Source of the DNA: Clostridia bacterium
GTDB taxonomy: Bacteria > Bacillota > Clostridia > Oscillospirales > CAG-272
DNA: 38,949 nt
Direction: 5' to 3'
Assembly: GCA_028720145.1 (NCBI GenBank)
Contig: JAQYLJ010000046.1
Coordinates: 1-38,949 of the forward strand
Shown: positions 12,107 through 19,121 of the stretch, piece by piece
Layout of the letters: each line of letters opens with the position of its first letter
How positions within the stretch are numbered: the stretch's first letter is position 1
Notes under the pieces: model-generated
The model's database searches: none
The model's input: only the letters and a program-made list of their open reading frames with translations
Told to the model about the DNA's origin: nothing
Translations under genes and position numbers: made by a program

Positions 12107-13369
12107 ATGCACTATACAGAGTACACAAAAGAAGAGGCGGCGTCCCGTCTCGCGGAAGCCGAGAAGAAACACGAGAGCCAAATTGCCCTCGGACTCTCGC
12201 TCGATCTCTCCCGCGGGAAGCCTGCGCCCGAGCAACTCGATCTCAGTCAGCCGATGCTGTCGCTCGCCGAATGGCAGGACGACGCGGGGGTGGATTGCCG
12301 TAACTACGGGATGCCGTTCGGGCTCGCCGAGATGCGCCGTTTTTGGGCATCGGTCACGGGGATTCCCGCCGAGAGAATCATCGTGGGAGGGAACTCCAGT
12401 CTCCAAATGATGTATGAGACCCTGACGCGCGCGATGCTGTTCGGGGTAGCGGGTTCCAAGGAACCGTGGTGCAAAATCGAAAAGAGAAAGTTCCTCTGTC
12501 CCGCGCCGGGCTACGACCGTCATTTTCGGGTCACCGAGACCCTCGGCTTTGAACTCGTGACCGTCCCGATGACGCAGGACGGACCCGATATGGACGCGGT
12601 GGAAGAGCTCGTCAAAGACCCGACCGTACGCGGGATGTGGTGTGTGCCGAAGTATTCCAACCCGACGGGCGTGACCTATTCGGACGAGACGGTTACGCGC
12701 ATCGCCGCGATGGAGACCGCCGCACCCGACTTCACCGTCATGTGGGATAATGCCTATGCCGTCCACGATTTTGTGGAAGACGGCGATCACCTCCTCGATG
12801 TCTTCTCGGTGGCGGAGAAATACGGGCACGAGGACAGATTCTTCTACTTTTCCTCGACCTCGAAGATCACGTTCCCGGGCGCGGGTGTCGCCATGATGTC
12901 GATGAGCGAGCGCAACCTCGCAAAGGTGAAACCCCTGATTTGCGCCGAGACCATCGGTCCCGATAAACTCAATCAGTTGCGCCATCTCGCGTTTCTCCCG
13001 AATAAGGAGGCACTCACCGCGCAGATGAAGCGCCATGCCGAGTATATCCGTCCCAAGTTCGATACACTCCTCGCCATTTTGGAGCGGGAACTCTCGGACG
13101 CGGGCTATGCACAATGGACCCGACCCTCGGGCGGCTATTTCGTCAGTATGGAAGTGCCGGACGGCTGTGCGAAACGGGTATGGGACCTCTGCCGCGAGGC
13201 GGGGCTGACCTTAACCGACGCGGGCGCATCGTTCCCCTACGGGCGCGACCCCAAGGATTCCAATCTCCGTCTCGCCCCGACCTTCTGCTCGCTCGCGGAC
13301 ATGACCCCGGCGGCGGAGATTCTCACGACCTCGGTCAAGATAGCCGCGCTCGAACGCCTGCTCGCATAA
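12107..13369 (+). CDS. PLP-dependent aspartate aminotransferase, subgroup Ic
   Basis: 420 residues. Fold-type I aminotransferase of the Asp_aminotransf (Ic) subgroup: SLDLSRGKP opening, NYG substrate-recognition stretch, VPKYSNPTG, DNAYAVHDF (PLP-binding Asp/Tyr) and the Schiff-base lysine K253 in STSKITFPGAG. The C-terminal Arg that binds the substrate carboxylate is in SNLRLAPTF. The family interconverts aspartate and oxaloacetate with 2-oxoglutarate. Start ATG follows GAGGGGATC. No clear terminator; 13421-13440 holds TTCTCG-N8-CGAGAA without a T-run. It precedes the sulfur locus, but the strong promoter at 13489 separates them. Confidence 0.9.
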   Translation: MHYTEYTKEEAASRLAEAEKKHESQIALGLSLDLSRGKPAPEQLDLSQPMLSLAEWQDDAGVDCRNYGMPFGLAEMRRFWASVTGIPAERIIVGGNSSLQMMYETLTRAMLFGVAGSKEPWCKIEKRKFLCPAPGYDRHFRVTETLGFELVTVPMTQDGPDMDAVEELVKDPTVRGMWCVPKYSNPTGVTYSDETVTRIAAMETAAPDFTVMWDNAYAVHDFVEDGDHLLDVFSVAEKYGHEDRFFYFSSTSKITFPGAGVAMMSMSERNLAKVKPLICAETIGPDKLNQLRHLAFLPNKEALTAQMKRHAEYIRPKFDTLLAILERELSDAGYAQWTRPSGGYFVSMEVPDGCAKRVWDLCREAGLTLTDAGASFPYGRDPKDSNLRLAPTFCSLADMTPAAEILTTSVKIAALERLLA

Positions 13370-13482
13370 TTGTCGTTTCGGTATCCCTGCCCGCGTAACG
13401 CGCAAAAGAAGAGTGTTTGCTTCTCGCATGATTTCGAGAACGATGTCGGATGCCCCGGAAAAATTATCGGAAAAAATTTATT

Positions 13483-13503
13483 TACCTATTGACAAGATAG
13501 GTA
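13483..13503. promoter_or_regulatory. Inverted repeat over the -35 box, candidate Rrf2 operator
   Basis: TACCTAT-N7-ATAGGTA (13483-13489 / 13497-13503), a perfect 7-bp inverted repeat that contains the TTGACA hexamer. A further related half-site CAGGTAGGTAAT lies near 13531-13542. The Rrf2-family gene at the end of this locus is the natural candidate ligand. The link is inference. Confidence 0.6.
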
Positions 13504-13517
13504 GATTGTGCTATTCT
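13489..13517 (+). promoter_or_regulatory. Promoter of the sulfur amino-acid operon
   Basis: TTGACA (13489-13494), 17-nt spacer, TATTCT (13512-13517). Transcription near 13524 gives a leader of about 380 nt before metQ, long enough for the leader ORF and terminator described below. Confidence 0.85.
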
Positions 13518-13565
13518 AATGCCAACCAAACAGGTAGGTAATTCGCAAGAAAGGAGAACACGGCG

Positions 13566-13691
13566 ATGAAAGAACAGATTTTCACCATGGCTATGATGGA
13601 GAATTGCATGTGCGGTCGCATGATGTGTATGGCATCCTGCGTGTCTTTTTCCGATGTGTTCTCCATGATAGATACGGCTCCCCACGCGTAA
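13566..13691 (+). CDS. 41-residue Met/Cys-rich leader peptide
   Basis: ATG 13566 to TAA 13689-13691, with AAGGAG about 8 nt upstream. Thirteen of 41 residues are Met (9) or Cys (Cys14, 16, 21, 25); in codons 8-25, eleven of eighteen are Met or Cys, including the run MENCMCGRMMCMASC. It precedes an intrinsic terminator and then metQNI-cysK, i.e. genes that supply exactly these two amino acids. That matches the logic of attenuator leader peptides (trp, his, leu), whose translation rate reports charged tRNA. It has no membrane segment and no close relative that I recognise. An alternative is a small metal-binding peptide, since it has CxC and CMxxC-type spacing. Confidence 0.8.
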   Translation: MKEQIFTMAMMENCMCGRMMCMASCVSFSDVFSMIDTAPHA

Positions 13692-13744
13692 ATACGAGAG
13701 GGAAGCACAATCGACACGGGAGACTCATGCGGGTCTCCCGTATT
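13691..13744 (+). promoter_or_regulatory. Candidate antiterminator
   Basis: 13691-13701 (AATACGAGAGG) can pair with 13734-13744 (TCTCCCGTATT): ten pairs including one G-U, with one A-C mismatch. The 3' arm is most of the terminator's 3' arm, so the two structures exclude each other. The 5' arm begins in the leader-peptide stop codon: a ribosome that finishes the peptide would cover it (terminator forms), while one stalled at the Met/Cys codons (ending at 13640) leaves it free (read-through). Confidence 0.6.
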
Positions 13745-13754
13745 CTTATTTTTT
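13716..13754 (+). terminator. Attenuator terminator in the sulfur-operon leader
   Basis: Perfect 9-bp stem ACGGGAGAC / GTCTCCCGT (13716-13724 / 13733-13741), 8-nt loop, then the T-rich run 13743-13754 (TTCTTATTTTTT). It lies 24 nt after the leader-peptide stop and about 150 nt before metQ, in the same transcript, so it must be bypassed for metQ expression. Confidence 0.88.
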
Positions 13755-13765
13755 GAGGTGAAAAG

Positions 13766-13825
13766 ATGATTCACTATTTTGAAACACTGGTCAGAGCCAA
13801 TTATCGCTACGGGCGAATGTGCTGA
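13766..13825 (+). CDS. 19-residue second upstream ORF ending in Met-Cys
   Basis: ATG 13766 to TGA 13823-13825, with GAGGTG 5 nt upstream (13755-13760), directly after the terminator T-run. It encodes MIHYFETLVRANYRYGRMC; its last two sense codons are ATG TGC, again methionine and cysteine. Following bases can fold two ways: TTCGG/CCGAA (about 13826-13841), or TCGGTT 13828-13833 with AACCGA near 13861-13866. It could act as a second translational checkpoint for metQ. The good ribosome binding site supports translation; function is inference. Confidence 0.55.
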   Translation: MIHYFETLVRANYRYGRMC

Positions 13826-13901
13826 TTCGGTTATCCCGAACATATATTTGCAAAAAACAAAACCGATTCACACATTCATTATATTTGAAAGGAATAGTAC
13901 C

Positions 13902-14750
13902 ATGAAAAAACTGATTTCCATTCTGCTTGTAGCAGTGCTCGCAGTCTCGCTCGTATTCTCTTTTTCCTCTTGCAAAAAGGATCAAATCACCATCGCCATC
14001 CCCAACGACACCACCAACGAGGCGCGTGCGCTGCTCCTGCTCGAAAACCTCGGCATCATCAAATTGAGAGAGGGCGCCGGTATCACCGCGACCATCCTCG
14101 ACATCACCGAGAATCCGCATAACATCGCATTCAAAGAGGTCGAGGCGGCACAGCTTCCGAATGTGCTCCAAGATGTCGATTATGCCGTCATCAACTCCAA
14201 CTACGCCATCGCGGCGGGTCTGAAACCGACCAAAGACTCGCTCGGCATCGAAGGTTCCGCCTCCGCTTACGGCAATATCCTCGCGGTCAAAGAGGGGAAA
14301 GAGAATTCCCCTGCCATCAAAGCTCTGAAAGCCGCACTCGAAAGCCGGCAGGTCGCCGACTTCATCGCATCGACTTATGACGGCGCGGTCGTCTCCGTGG
14401 TGGAGAACCTGACCGACGGCTACGATGCATCGGTCGACTATGCGGCTCTCTCCGGCACGACCATCAAAGTGGCTGCGTCTCCCACGCCTCATGCGGACAT
14501 TCTGCGCGTGGTGAAAGACATTCTCGCCGCACGGGGCATCACCCTCGAAATCGTAGAGTATCAAGACTATGTGATTCCCAACAATGTGGTAGAGAGCGGG
14601 GAAGTCGATGCGAACTATTTCCAGCATGTTCCTTATCTCGATGATTTCAATACAGAGAACGGCACCCATATCGTGTCGGTCGCGGTCATCCATGTGGAGC
14701 CGCTCGGCATCTACGGCGGGAAGCAGTCCTCGCTCGACCCCATCAAGTAA
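13902..14750 (+). CDS. metQ: MetQ-type methionine-binding lipoprotein with circularly permuted domain order
   Basis: 282 residues from ATG 13902, with AAAGGA upstream. Signal peptide and lipobox FSSC (Cys24). The mature protein begins at once with TIAIPNDTTNEARALLLL (30-47), DITENPHNIAFKEVEAAQLP (68-87) and VINSNYAIAAGLKPTKDSL, ending GAVV (161-164); in canonical MetQ these form the C-terminal part. A linker of about 20 residues leads to IKVAASPTPHADIL (188-201), YVIPNNVVESGEVDANYFQH (223-242) and HVEPLGIYGGKQSSLD (264-279), which is the canonical N-terminal half. The join lies where canonical MetQ runs from SLDEL into TIAIPND, so nothing is lost. Expected role: deliver D/L-methionine to MetNI. 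The intact frame and context argue that it is functional. Confidence 0.92.
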   Translation: MKKLISILLVAVLAVSLVFSFSSCKKDQITIAIPNDTTNEARALLLLENLGIIKLREGAGITATILDITENPHNIAFKEVEAAQLPNVLQDVDYAVINSNYAIAAGLKPTKDSLGIEGSASAYGNILAVKEGKENSPAIKALKAALESRQVADFIASTYDGAVVSVVENLTDGYDASVDYAALSGTTIKVAASPTPHADILRVVKDILAARGITLEIVEYQDYVIPNNVVESGEVDANYFQHVPYLDDFNTENGTHIVSVAVIHVEPLGIYGGKQSSLDPIK

Positions 14751-14807
14751 GAAACACCAACGCTCGACAGAGTTCATTACGACAGCTAGTGAGTATCGGA
14801 GGCGCCC

Positions 14808-15824
14808 ATGATTGTTCTGAAACAGGTATCGAAGCAGTTCCAAACCGAGGACGGCACGGTCGATGCTTTAAAAAATGTATCGATTTCCATTCCCGACGGA
14901 GATATTTTCGGCATCATCGGGATGAGCGGCGCGGGGAAGAGCACCTTGGTGCGATGTATCAATATGCTCGAACGACCGAGTGAGGGCAGTATTGAAATCG
15001 ACGGCGTACCGCTCGAAACCCTCTCGGAGAAGGAGCTGCGGGAGATGCGCCGCGGGGTCACGATGATTTTTCAGGGGTTCCATCTGCTCATGCAGAGGAA
15101 TTGCCTCAAAAATGTGTGTTTCCCGCTGGAACTCGCAGGGAAAAGTAAGGCAGAGGCAAAGAAGAGAGCGCAGGAACTACTAGACATCGTCGGGCTCGGG
15201 GATAAGGCGAAGGCATACCCCGCCCAACTCTCGGGCGGGCAGCAGCAGAGAGTCGCCATCGCCCGTGCGCTTGCGACCGACCCGAAAGTTCTGCTGTGCG
15301 ACGAGGCGACCAGCGCACTCGACCCCAACACGACCAATTCCATTTTGGAACTTCTCCGTACCATTAACGAACAACTCGGCATCACGGTCATCATCATCAC
15401 GCACCAAATGAGCGTGGTGGAGAAGATTTGTCGTCACGTCGCCATCCTCGACGGCGGCGAGGTCGTCGAACAGGGCGAGGTCTCGGAGGTCTTCTCCCAC
15501 CCGCGCTCCGCGGCGGCGCGGAAACTGGTGTTCCCCGAAGAAAACGGGGATTTCCCGCTGACGGGCGGCACGGACGAGCGGCTGATTCGCGTGGTGTTCA
15601 ATGGCGCGGCGGCGACCGGCTCCCCGCTCATTGCGAGAATGGCGGTCGAGCGGGGCATCGAGGCGAATATCGTGTATGCCTCCACCAAGTCCATCGGAGG
15701 TAAGGTCTACGGCTCCATGTTGCTCGGTATCCCAAACGACGAGAGTCAAGTACAAACAGCGACGGAATACCTGACGGGGGTTCCGAATGTCGCGGTACAG
15801 GTGGTGACGACAGATGTTTCGTGA
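14808..15824 (+). CDS. metN: Methionine ABC transporter ATPase MetN
   Basis: 338 residues. Walker A GMSGAGKST, Q-loop IFQGFHLL, signature LSGGQQQR, Walker B LLCDEA with TSALDP, H-loop THQM. The C-terminal 75 residues form the NIL domain (VVFNGAAATGSPLIARMAVERG, split: VVFNGAAATG then SPLIARMA), which in the E. coli homologue binds methionine and shuts the transporter. So an allosteric layer of control is likely here too. The ATG follows a GGAGG site. It overlaps metI by 11 bp. Confidence 0.95.
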   Translation: MIVLKQVSKQFQTEDGTVDALKNVSISIPDGDIFGIIGMSGAGKSTLVRCINMLERPSEGSIEIDGVPLETLSEKELREMRRGVTMIFQGFHLLMQRNCLKNVCFPLELAGKSKAEAKKRAQELLDIVGLGDKAKAYPAQLSGGQQQRVAIARALATDPKVLLCDEATSALDPNTTNSILELLRTINEQLGITVIIITHQMSVVEKICRHVAILDGGEVVEQGEVSEVFSHPRSAAARKLVFPEENGDFPLTGGTDERLIRVVFNGAAATGSPLIARMAVERGIEANIVYASTKSIGGKVYGSMLLGIPNDESQVQTATEYLTGVPNVAVQVVTTDVS

Positions 15825-16524
15825 TTTGTTTTCGGCAGATGCGTGGCGAGAGGCGTGGCGCATCATACAGGCGGAGTTTGCGGGGGCGATCTGGGAGACC
15901 GTCTATGTGACGGTGCTCGCGACCCTCTTCTCCATCCTCATCGGTCTGCCGCTCGGGGTGTTGCTCGTCGCGGGAGAAAAGAACGGGGTCTTACCGCTCC
16001 CCGCATGGCTGCTCCGATGTTTGAATGTCATCATCAATCTTCTTCGCTCCATCCCGTTCTTGATTCTCATGATTTTGGTCTTTCCCTTGACCCGCCTGAT
16101 TGTCGGTACGGTCGTCGGTACGACCGCTTCGATTGTCCCGCTCGTCATCGCCGCATTCCCGTTCGTGGCGCGGCTGGCGGAGAGCAGTCTCCGCGAGGTC
16201 AGTCCGAACGTCATCGAGATGGCGAAGAGCATGGGGGCGTCGCCTTTTCAGATTATTGTCAAGGTCATGATTCCCGAGTGCGTCCCCTCGCTTATCTCGA
16301 ACGCGACCATCGCCCTCACGACCATCCTCGGCTATTCCGCGATGAGCGGCATCATCGGCGGCGGCGGGCTCGGGAAAATCGCCATCAACTACGGGTACTA
16401 TCGGTATAAATACCTCATCATGCTGGCGGCTGTCGTTCTGCTGATTCTCTTCGTGCAGTTGTGTCAGAGCGCCGGCACCCGCCTTTCACACAAATTGGAT
16501 AAACGCATTCGGAATAAAAAATAA
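15814..16524 (+). CDS. metI: Methionine ABC transporter permease MetI
   Basis: 236 residues, five predicted membrane helices. EAA-type coupling loop [21 protein letters not shown] and the MetI hallmark [16 protein letters not shown]. It starts inside the end of metN (11-bp overlap), a sign of coupled translation. Forms the homodimeric membrane channel of MetNI. The preceding N-terminal segment ([17 protein letters not shown]) is an amphipathic stretch before helix 1. Confidence 0.95.
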
Positions 16525-16541
16525 ATTCGGAGGAAATCACA

Positions 16542-17474
16542 ATGTCGAGCATATATACATCTGCGGATCAACTCATCGGGAAGACACCGCTCCTCGAACT
16601 CACGCATATCGAAAAAGAGGAAGGGCTGAAAGCCCGCGTGGTGGCGAAACTGGAATACTTCAACCCTGCGGGGTCGGTCAAAGACAGAATTGCCAAAGCC
16701 ATGATTGACGACGCGGAAGCGACGGGGAAACTCAAACCCGGCTCGGTCATCATCGAACCCACGAGCGGCAATACGGGAATTGGGCTCGCGTCGGTCGCGA
16801 CCGCCCGCGGGTATCGCACGATTCTGACCATGCCGGAGACCATGTCGGTCGAGCGCAGACAACTCATCAAAGCGTACGGTGCCGAGATCGTCCTCACCGA
16901 GGGGGCAAAAGGCATGAAAGGCGCGATTGCCAAGGCGGAGGAACTCGCGAAAGAGATTCCGAACAGTTTCATTCCCGGGCAGTTCAAAAACCCCGCGAAC
17001 CCCAAAGCACACAGAGAGACGACAGGTCCCGAAATCTACGAGGATACCGACGGAAAGGTCGATATCTTTGTCGCGGGTGTCGGCACGGGCGGAACCGTCA
17101 CGGGCGTCGGCGAATACCTGAAATCCAAGAATCCCGCCGTGAAAGTCGTCGCGGTGGAACCCGAGACCTCTGCGGTGCTCTCGACGGGTATCGCGGGCGC
17201 ACATAAGATACAGGGCATCGGCGCGGGTTTCGTCCCCGAGGTGCTGAACACGGGGATTTACGATGAGATCATTCCCGTCTCGAATGAAAACGCGTTTGCA
17301 ACCGGGAAACGCATCGGGAAGAGCGAGGGGGTCCTGGTCGGAATTTCCTCGGGTGCCGCGACTTATGCCGCCATCGAACTGGCGAAACGACCCGAGAACG
17401 CGGGGAAACTCATCGTCGTGCTCTTGCCCGACACGGGTGACAGATACCTGTCCACCCCCTTGTTTGCTGACTAA
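16542..17474 (+). CDS. cysK: Cysteine synthase (O-acetylserine sulfhydrylase)
   Basis: 310 residues, full length. PLP lysine K47 in NPAGSVKDR, substrate loop PTSGNTG, phosphate-binding GTGGT and the C-terminal SSGAA and [10 protein letters not shown] motifs are all present. It makes cysteine from O-acetylserine and sulfide. It starts 17 bp after metI behind a CGGAGG site, so it belongs to the same operon; the attenuator would therefore control both methionine uptake and cysteine synthesis, which fits a leader rich in both residues. The residue after the active-site region and lack of a C-terminal extension exclude CBS. Confidence 0.95.
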
Positions 17475-17482
17475 TTCCCGAG

Positions 17483-17516
17483 AGACTTCGGTACTTCTTT
17501 TGTATCGAAGTCTTTT
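17483..17516 (+). terminator. Hairpin between cysK and mnmA, probably a partial terminator
   Basis: 12-bp stem AGACTTCGGTAC / GTATCGAAGTCT (17483-17494 / 17502-17513) with one G-U pair and a T-rich 7-nt loop, then TTTT. The T-run is short, so some read-through into mnmA is likely. Confidence 0.65.
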
Positions 17517-17533: not shown

Positions 17534-18643
17534 ATGAAAAAAGCGTTGATTGCCATGAGCGGCGGGGTAGACTCTTCGCTCGCGGCGAAACTCATGACCG
17601 ACCGCGGGTACGAATGTATCGGCTGTACCATGAAACTCTATCGGAATGAAGACGCAGGGGTCCCCCGCGCACATACCTGCTGTTCGCTCGACGATGTCGA
17701 GGACGCGCGCAGCGTCGCATTGCAACTCGGGATGCGGTACTATGTCTTTAACTTCGTCGATGATTTCCATGAGAAAGTCATTTGCAAGTTTATTTCGAGC
17801 TATGAGAACGGCATGACACCCAACCCTTGCATCGACTGTAACCGTTTCATGAAATTCGAGAAGCTTTATCTCCGCGCGCAGACGCTCGGCTGTGACTATG
17901 TCGTGACGGGGCACTATGCACGAATCGAGGAGCGGGACGGGCGGTATCTACTCAAAAAGGCACTCGATGAGACCAAAGACCAGAGTTATGTACTGTACGC
18001 GATGACGCAGGAGCAGTTGGCGCACACCCTGTTTCCGCTCGGAGAACTCAAAAAGACCGAGGTGAGAGCCATAGCGGCGGCGTGCGGGTTCGTCAATGCG
18101 GAGAAGCCGGATAGTCAGGACATTTGTTTTGTGCCGGACGGGGACTACGCGGGCGCGATCGAGCGTCTCACGGGACGGAAAGTGCCTGAGGGCGACTTCG
18201 TCGACAAGAACGGACGCGTCCTCGGTCACCACAGGGGCATCATTCACTATACCCTCGGTCAGCGGAGGGGCATCGGGATTTCGAGCACCGCGCCGCTCTA
18301 TGTCGTGCGTATTTGCCCCGCAGAGGGTAGAATCGTCCTCGGGGAGGAGAAAGCCCTCTTTGGGCGCGAGGCGGAGGTGAGCGACTTCAACTGGGTGAGC
18401 GGACGGGCACCCGAGCGGGCTTTTCGCTGTCGGGCAAAGATTCGCTATCGACAGCCCGAGCAGGATGTGACCGTTTACCCGACAGGAAAGACCTCCGTGC
18501 GGTTGGTGTTCGATACGCCTCAGCGGGCGATCACCCCGGGACAGGCGGCGGTGCTCTATGACGGAGACATCGTGCTCGGCGGCGGCACCATTCAAAACGG
18601 CTTTGCGGAGCAAAGCGGCGACACGATTCGCCATCATTCTTGA
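17534..18643 (+). CDS. mnmA: tRNA-specific 2-thiouridylase MnmA
   Basis: 369 residues. PP-loop ATP-binding motif SGGVDSS (9-15), the N-terminal CCSLDDVEDAR stretch, catalytic Cys pair candidates Cys99 (NPCIDC) and Cys198 (DICF), tRNA-binding GQRRGIG and the C-terminal beta-barrel ending in ALYDGD-like VLYDGDIVLGGG. It installs the sulfur of s2U34 in tRNA-Lys/Glu/Gln, using persulfide sulfur from a cysteine desulfurase. No desulfurase (iscS) is adjacent, unusual for many Firmicutes where iscS-mnmA pair. It follows cysK after a weak terminator. GGAG lies upstream of the ATG. The rrf2 promoter begins in its stop codon. Confidence 0.95.
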   Translation: MKKALIAMSGGVDSSLAAKLMTDRGYECIGCTMKLYRNEDAGVPRAHTCCSLDDVEDARSVALQLGMRYYVFNFVDDFHEKVICKFISSYENGMTPNPCIDCNRFMKFEKLYLRAQTLGCDYVVTGHYARIEERDGRYLLKKALDETKDQSYVLYAMTQEQLAHTLFPLGELKKTEVRAIAAACGFVNAEKPDSQDICFVPDGDYAGAIERLTGRKVPEGDFVDKNGRVLGHHRGIIHYTLGQRRGIGISSTAPLYVVRICPAEGRIVLGEEKALFGREAEVSDFNWVSGRAPERAFRCRAKIRYRQPEQDVTVYPTGKTSVRLVFDTPQRAITPGQAAVLYDGDIVLGGGTIQNGFAEQSGDTIRHHS

Positions 18644-18668: not shown

Positions 18669-18689
18669 GAACACAAAGAGGTGATGCGT

Positions 18690-19121
18690 ATGATGATTTC
18701 GACGAGAGGGAGATACGCGCTCCGCGTCATGATTGACCTCGCCGAGCATCGGGATGACGGATATATCCCGATGAAAGAGATTGCCGAGAGACAGGACATT
18801 TCCCTCAAGTATCTCGAACGCATTCTTCCCGCCCTCACAAAACACGGGTATATCGAGGGGGTACACGGGAAAGGCGGGGGATACCGCCTCGTGAAAGCGC
18901 CTGAGGAGTGTATTGTCGGGGATATTTTGCGCCTGACGGAGGGGGATCTCGCGCCCGTCGCCTGCCTCGAATGTGGGGCGAAACCCTGCCCGCGCGCCGA
19001 AGAATGCCGCACTTTCCCCATGTGGCGGGACTTCTATCGGCTCACGAACGACTATTTTGATTGCATCACCGTGGCGGTTTTGATGAAAACCGAACGCCCC
19101 GCGGAAGAGGAAGATGAGTAG
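18690..19121 (+). CDS. Rrf2-family transcriptional regulator
   Basis: 143 residues from ATG 18690 (MMISTRGRYALR), chosen by its GAGG site 8 nt upstream and by family alignment; GTG 18681 and ATG 18684 overlap that site. A winged helix-turn-helix domain contains ISLKYLERILPALTKHGYIE and the wing GKGGGYRL. Four cysteines (92, 95, 100, 106) lie in ACLECGAKPCPRAEEC, the region where IscR-type members bind an Fe-S cluster. Rrf2 proteins such as CymR and IscR control sulfur and Fe-S metabolism, which suits this locus. The likely target is the inverted repeat at 13483-13503. Confidence 0.92.
   Translation: MMISTRGRYALRVMIDLAEHRDDGYIPMKEIAERQDISLKYLERILPALTKHGYIEGVHGKGGGYRLVKAPEECIVGDILRLTEGDLAPVACLECGAKPCPRAEECRTFPMWRDFYRLTNDYFDCITVAVLMKTERPAEEEDE

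Follow-up and report, generated by a model that had tools for sequence, protein, structure and literature searches.

Upstream of the metQNI-cysK operon of a Clostridia bacterium (GCA_028720145.1, contig JAQYLJ010000046.1), a short open reading frame (ORF) crowded with Met and Cys codons and the intrinsic terminator behind it very probably form a classical ribosome-mediated transcription attenuator, a reading drawn from sequence comparison that would have the operon respond to Met and probably also to Cys. The parts of such a device are present in the window (the whole stretch of DNA analyzed, 38,949 nucleotides), leaders of the same kind precede sulfur genes in related genomes, and the distal codons of these leaders are complementary to the terminators of their own loci in a matched manner. 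Between this ORF (leader 1) and metQ lies a second one (leader 2); we tentatively propose that the two act in series, the Met/Cys-codon attenuator being followed by a member of a sulfur-sensing arrest peptide family found across many families of the class.

The features of the locus are collected in Table 1. An earlier note on this DNA had placed metQNI and cysK downstream of the leader, and family models confirmed all four genes: CysK scored above its own NCBIfam cut-off, MetQ, MetN, and MetI scored below theirs, and MetQ passed the Pfam cut-off. Direct reading likewise bore out the 41-codon ORF with its good ribosome site, the promoter ahead of it, and its 13 Met and Cys codons, comprising 9 Met (start counted; 8 internal) and 4 Cys, with 11 of the 13 falling within codons 8-25. 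The observation of a Met/Cys-rich leader is real and beyond chance: none of 2,000 dinucleotide shuffles of positions 13371-13901 contained a short ORF with at least 13 Met and Cys codons, the maximum being 10. Consensus scans of positions 13000-17500 returned 3 promoter-like sites (shuffles, 2.3) and 6 terminator-like sites (shuffles, 4.5), neither count being above chance, so the weight of the argument rests on the relatives.

Table 1. Features of the leader region and the genes downstream, in positions of the window.
Feature	Position	Strand	Basis
Candidate Rrf2-type operator, inverted repeat ACCTATTGACAAGATAGGT spanning the -35 box	13484..13502	+	relatives; inference
Promoter TTGACA-17-TATTCT	13489..13517	+	10/12 consensus matches, TG ahead of second hexamer
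Leader 1 ribosome site AAAGGAG	13550..13556	+	sequence
Leader 1 ORF, 41 codons, MKEQIFTMAMMENCMCGRMMCMASCVSFSDVFSMIDTAPHA	13566..13691	+	direct reading, relatives, profile search
Putative regulatory codons 8-25 of leader 1 (7 Met, 4 Cys)	13587..13640	+	direct reading, alignment
Putative antiterminator, 5' strand CCGATGTGTTCTCC, within leader 1	13651..13664	+	duplex, fold, matched-pair test
Putative antiterminator, 3' strand (5' arm and loop of the terminator)	13719..13732	+	duplex, fold
Intrinsic terminator hairpin, 11 bp	13716..13741, U-rich tract to 13754	+	dG -19.3, scan
Leader 2 ribosome site GAGGTG	13755..13760	+	sequence
Leader 2 ORF MIHYFETLVRANYRYGRMC, conserved-sequence leader	13766..13825	+	profile search
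Leader 2 hairpin GAATGTG...CACATTC, ends upstream of metQ ribosome site	13815..13877	+	fold
metQ-like lipoprotein gene	13902..14750	+	family models; halves reversed relative to family model
metN	14808..15824	+	family model
metI	15814..16524	+	family model
cysK	16542..17474	+	family model
mnmA, tRNA 2-thiolation enzyme	17534..18643	+	family model
Rrf2-family regulator	18681..19121	+	above superfamily cut-off, below IscR and CymR cut-offs

Relatives of MetQ were found mainly, judged by record titles, in Clostridia genomes from gut and rumen, with a match in 68 of 395 family genomes. The loci read were the best 80 of 591 confirmed in a genome contig collection and the best 30 of the family, giving 111 usable 600-nt regions upstream of metQ, the window's own included and some species represented twice. 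Of the 111, 42 contain a Met-rich ORF preceded by a ribosome site (3 of 3 from the same genus, 22 of 79 from the contig collection, and 17 of 29 from the family), compared with 0-1 of 111 in ten rounds of shuffling, 5 of 111 on the reverse strand, and 1 of 104 in the sequence 600-1200 nt upstream. A close metN was found in 3 of 35 same-genus genomes searched, and all three share the arrangement of Met-rich ORF, terminator, and metQ. No Met-rich leader was found within 1400 nt in 11 of the 29 family metQ loci, among them L098, from a same-genus genome with metQ; in another family locus, L118, the leader lies further out. When ORFs were instead picked for having a ribosome site and a terminator behind them, blind to Met, 36 of 38 distinct ORFs had at least four internal Met.

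The terminator of leader 1 begins 24 nt past the stop codon, where the earlier note had put it, and its hairpin is followed by ATTCTTATTTTTT; its stem has 11 pairs, not the 9 first counted. A terminator with a dG of -10 or better stands behind 42 of 43 distinct leaders (identical peptides counted once; L074 and L125 are without a usable start), as against 7.9% of 215 shuffles. Across 139 regions, which include those derived from leader 2 and some loci twice, 49 of 50 Met-rich leaders have one. L079, which is without a terminator, was kept out of the 43-peptide counts and is still among the 42 of 111.

Conservation before sulfur genes was borne out by a six-frame search of 246 family genomes with a profile of 25 leaders (E<=0.01). 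All 23 matches, in 20 genomes with the window included, precede sulfur genes: metQ in 14 (the window among them), metY in five, metN of other types in three, and a cysK remnant in one. Here, metY is a gene whose sequence we take to be that of an O-acetylhomoserine sulfhydrylase. Many of the 23 matches are themselves rows of the profile; at least L173-L178 are not. The same profile returned from 391 genomes of the class the window, four loci before metY, and two weak matches, and from 348 genomes of the phylum the window and one locus before metQ in another class (L198). L187 (E 0.002, within a permease-like frame) and L189 (E 0.004) have no sulfur gene behind them, and the next match in the window's own genome reached E=0.48 at a locus where no sulfur gene was found.

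In the window, the putative antiterminator duplex has an energy of -14.8 kcal/mol. Plain duplex energies differed modestly from those of shuffles (mean z -0.76; p<0.05 in 9 of 43 loci), and for this reason a matched-pair permutation was run, in which the coding stretch past the Met cluster was paired with the terminator 5' arm and loop of its own or of another locus. Over 43 loci, own pairs averaged -11.53 kcal/mol and swapped pairs -9.87 kcal/mol (z -4.96; 0 of 20,000 permutations), and 37 de-duplicated loci gave z -4.62. Neither the spacer between stop codon and terminator (p=0.90) nor the Met cluster (p=0.10) was matched to the 5' arm and loop over the 43 loci. The distal codons were matched to the terminator loop and 3' arm as well (z -4.53), so the permutation is not specific to the 5' arm. 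The earlier note had proposed a different antiterminator, formed by positions 13691-13701, in the stop-codon region, with 13734-13744, in the 3' arm. This pairing can form (-9.0 kcal/mol); as a conserved antiterminator, pairings of its kind (spacer with 3' arm) fail the same test (43 loci, p=0.42; 37 loci, p=0.22). Of the attenuator originally suggested, the leader with its sulfur-amino-acid codons and the terminator are supported, and the pairing is not.

Folding points in the same direction less strongly. Window RNA from 13646 to 13733, a stretch that a stalled ribosome would leave exposed and at whose length the 3' arm does not yet exist, folds into the antiterminator; when the fold starts at 13632, slightly earlier coding RNA pairs best with the same terminator arm. 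Over the 43 loci the effect is weak: the probability of pairing between 5' arm and distal codons was 0.515 against 0.428 in shuffles (p=0.003), exceeding 0.5 in 25 loci, and in L009, L011, L028, L101, and L120 it is the spacer between stop codon and terminator that pairs with the 5' arm. Once the 3' arm is present, the terminator is kept in all three window folds (starting after codons 13, 20, and 24), as the two energies (-14.8 against -19.3 kcal/mol) would have it; antitermination must thus be kinetic. The antiterminator strand of the window ends 27 nt short of the final base of the stop codon, and a ribosome paused there would leave the strand uncovered; in relatives, the sites range widely.

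On this basis, we infer the following course of events. With charged tRNA-Met (and probably tRNA-Cys) plentiful, a ribosome translating leader 1 would trail RNA polymerase through the distal codons and cover the 5' strand of the antiterminator, the terminator would form, and transcription would stop. With Met or Cys in short supply, the ribosome would stall within codons 8-25 and leave the distal codons bare, and these would pair with the terminator 5' arm and loop before the 3' arm is made, letting transcription enter the operon. Like classical attenuation, this model requires a ribosome that closely follows the polymerase, a condition that may not hold in Firmicutes. A study of Bacillus subtilis reports that the polymerase runs ahead there (PMC9226507); a conserved attenuator would thus make coupling in Clostridia testable.

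Which amino acids such an attenuator would read can be approached through the composition of the 43 distinct leaders. Met makes up 21.8% of their residues and Cys 8.2%, third after Met and Ser; Cys occurs in 42 of the 43 peptides and the Met-Cys dipeptide in 40, in a set whose selection ignored Cys. These figures, and the presence of cysK in the window operon, argue against the same attenuator sensing Met alone with its Cys codons incidental, a reading that is nevertheless quite possible, if not the one we would expect. It is favored by alignment columns 13, 15, and 20, occupied by Met without exception or nearly so (the window has Asn at 13), and by two leaders ahead of metQ, L044 without Cys and L011 with one Cys beside 11 Met. 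The 38 ORFs picked blind to Met point the same way: compared with 61 further short ORFs from these regions, Met is enriched 3.4-fold (21.7% against 6.3%) and Cys only 1.7-fold (8.5% against 4.9%). Taken together, the composition supports Met as the main signal and the enrichment of Cys as also real, and it is plausible that leader 1 reads both.

The remaining explanations dispense with a leader-peptide attenuator. Clusters of the MCMC type could bind soft metals, and the ORF might then encode a working Met/Cys-rich metal-binding peptide, for copper for example, rather than a regulatory leader. We regard this as very unlikely, as the peptides drift save for Met and Cys (24-49% identity to the window peptide), leader 1 matches neither NCBIfam nor Pfam up to E=1, a terminator nearly always follows, and the genes downstream serve Met or Cys. 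An unrecognized riboswitch or T-box, with the ORF incidental, has a precedent in Clostridioides difficile, where SAM-I riboswitches lie ahead of metNLQ and metY according to the accessible text of PMC11477304. In the window, no Rfam covariance model reached its gathering score, SAM-I riboswitch and T-box included, and what is conserved in relatives is Met codons in one frame. The single SAM-I match of the window's own genome lies elsewhere than this operon, before an ORF that we take to be metK, and a riboswitch or T-box is most improbable here. As for chance or an assembly artefact, the genome is a 68-contig assembly (1.90 Mb, 97.8% complete); given the shuffle and comparative tests, and relatives of leader 1 in other families, in the other class already mentioned (L198), and in Oscillibacter sp. 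ER4 (L054), such an origin is scarcely credible. If the preferred reading, an attenuator, is true, Met and perhaps Cys would be sensed via charged tRNA at the uptake operon with a SAM-I riboswitch kept for another locus, so that one genome would read two signals of one pathway separately.

Leader 2, which is absent from the earlier note, adjoins the leader 1 terminator on its 3' side. Searched with a profile built from eight peptides, 37 of the 246 family genomes held 41 matches (E<=1e-5), and 19 of the 245 genomes of the class held matches at E<=0.001; both counts include the window, whose own genome has one copy. The gene downstream is metY in most loci read, and also metQ or cysK. Among 19 non-window loci of the class, 13 fit the motif described below (11 before metY and two before metQ); the weak loci L205, L209, L210, L211, L212, and L216 did not fit it, and one further match was without a locus. 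The motif, which fixes several residues, picked 34 copies (29 distinct peptides), and conservation of residues in these is therefore partly by construction, which does not apply to codon choice. Codons vary freely across the 34 copies, with six different codons at one Arg and six at a Leu, and yet the Arg preceding the last Met is CGA in all 34. The codon after that Met is Cys in 21 copies and stop in 10. The proposed core would accordingly read L-[LV]-R-x-N-[FY]-R-F-G-R-M, followed by Cys or stop, with the last Arg always CGA; a nascent chain of this kind with a slow CGA-ATG end would stall the ribosome according to the supply of sulfur amino acids. In 13 of the 34 loci, a leader with at least seven Met and Cys lies ahead of leader 2.

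What such stalling would do appears to differ with the gene downstream. In metY loci, the codons of leader 2 pair with the ribosome site, which has a mean unpaired probability of 0.25; with a ribosome modelled on the end of leader 2, this rises to 0.51 (p=5e-6; clear in 16 of 26 loci). Stalling before metY would thus open the ribosome site, and in these loci leader 2 is likely, on the strength of the model, to be a translational switch. The same model moved the value from 0.37 to 0.38 in eight metQ loci (clear in one of the eight) and from 0.20 to 0.24 in the window, leaving a ribosome-site switch for metQ unsupported in seven of the eight metQ loci, the window included. SecM and TnaC represent the leaders that act by translation attenuation or as arrest peptides. 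Leader 2 resembles this class in having a conserved nascent-chain sequence that adjoins a masked ribosome site and differs from it in its sequence and in the sulfur genes downstream; its stalling is a candidate activity, which would make leader 2 a new nascent-chain sensor. In L113, a different short ORF lies some 160 nt ahead of metQ; it ends in DDRMC, carries CGAATGTGTTGA, and may be a leader 2 that has diverged. In L177, both leaders lie ahead of an apparent cysK with a large internal deletion.

The inverted repeat over the promoter adds a possible third layer. In 27 of the 34 loci, the 420 nt ahead of leader 2 contain a CCTA-gap-TAGG repeat, compared with 0-3 of 34 in 20 rounds of shuffling, and in 20 of the 34 it encloses TTGACA, as in the window. 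In the window's own genome, the strict operator pattern has one exact and three one-mismatch places, fewer than the 23 of a control pattern; support for an operator thus comes from the relatives, not from a genome-wide count. The operator-like repeat and the Rrf2 gene lie in the same cluster, which suggests that the Rrf2 protein may act as a local repressor at this candidate site. The protein passes the Rrf2 superfamily cut-off and scores 90.9 bits against the CymR model, whose cut-off is 195, so the promoter could not be assigned to those regulated by CymR. The Rrf2-family gene also holds a CLECGAKPCPRAEEC stretch, which could, we presume from IscR, hold an iron-sulfur cluster.

Leader-peptide attenuation itself has long been known, the trp, his, leu, and ilv leaders being the classical examples. 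Leader 1 shares their main features, having a short ORF with a ribosome site between the promoter and the first gene, an intrinsic terminator past the ORF, regulatory codons for an amino acid supplied by the operon that are kept while other residues drift, and a mutually exclusive alternative pairing in the coding sequence past these codons (from the permutation over 43 loci, with the fold test weaker). It differs from them in the amino acids that would be sensed, in the second leader in series, and in the operator-like repeat over the promoter. Among Firmicutes, the accessible parts of two reports describe leader-peptide attenuation for his leaders in bacilli (PMC2965389) and a leucine-rich ilv leader in Staphylococcus aureus (PMC5794164). 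Cys-codon leaders before the cys operons of Mycobacterium and others were predicted in 2005 in a survey of Actinobacteria, which, as far as its accessible text goes, saw no conserved structures before Met operons (PMC1262725). Like leader 1, these leaders place codons for a sulfur amino acid ahead of sulfur genes; as described in that text, their Cys codons run together close to the stop and a conserved terminator is missing, whereas leader 1 is mostly Met and is followed by a terminator.

The closest known case is metL of Streptomyces lividans TK24, a leader predicted before metNIQ and proposed to be a Met-dependent attenuator (PMC8079986, accessible part). The earlier note had called one leader reading Met and Cys a distinct arrangement, and in light of metL this is only partly right. 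Both are short peptides with clustered Met and Cys (CMCRRMC in metL) before a Met-import operon. In the text available, metL is on a leaderless transcript, has no reported Rho-independent terminator, and contains two internal Met and three Cys in 29 residues, unlike leader 1 with its eight internal Met, ribosome site, terminator, putative antiterminator, and family of relatives, the comparison being with the printed metL peptide only. A literature search of partial coverage, with few subscription journals, found no report of the leader 1 family or of leader 2. What is new here is a leader family with terminator and predicted antiterminator, in tandem with a conserved leader 2, together with an operator-like repeat.

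Two further observations concern the operon genes. Residues 26-165 of MetQ, its N-terminal half, align to positions 95-234 of the Lipoprotein_9 model, its C-terminal part, and the halves also occur in reverse order in MetQ of some family genomes; judged by this alignment, the window MetQ looks circularly permuted. In the same gene cluster, mnmA, a sulfur user, lies beside cysK, whose product makes Cys, and mnmA is presumably co-transcribed with the upstream operon.
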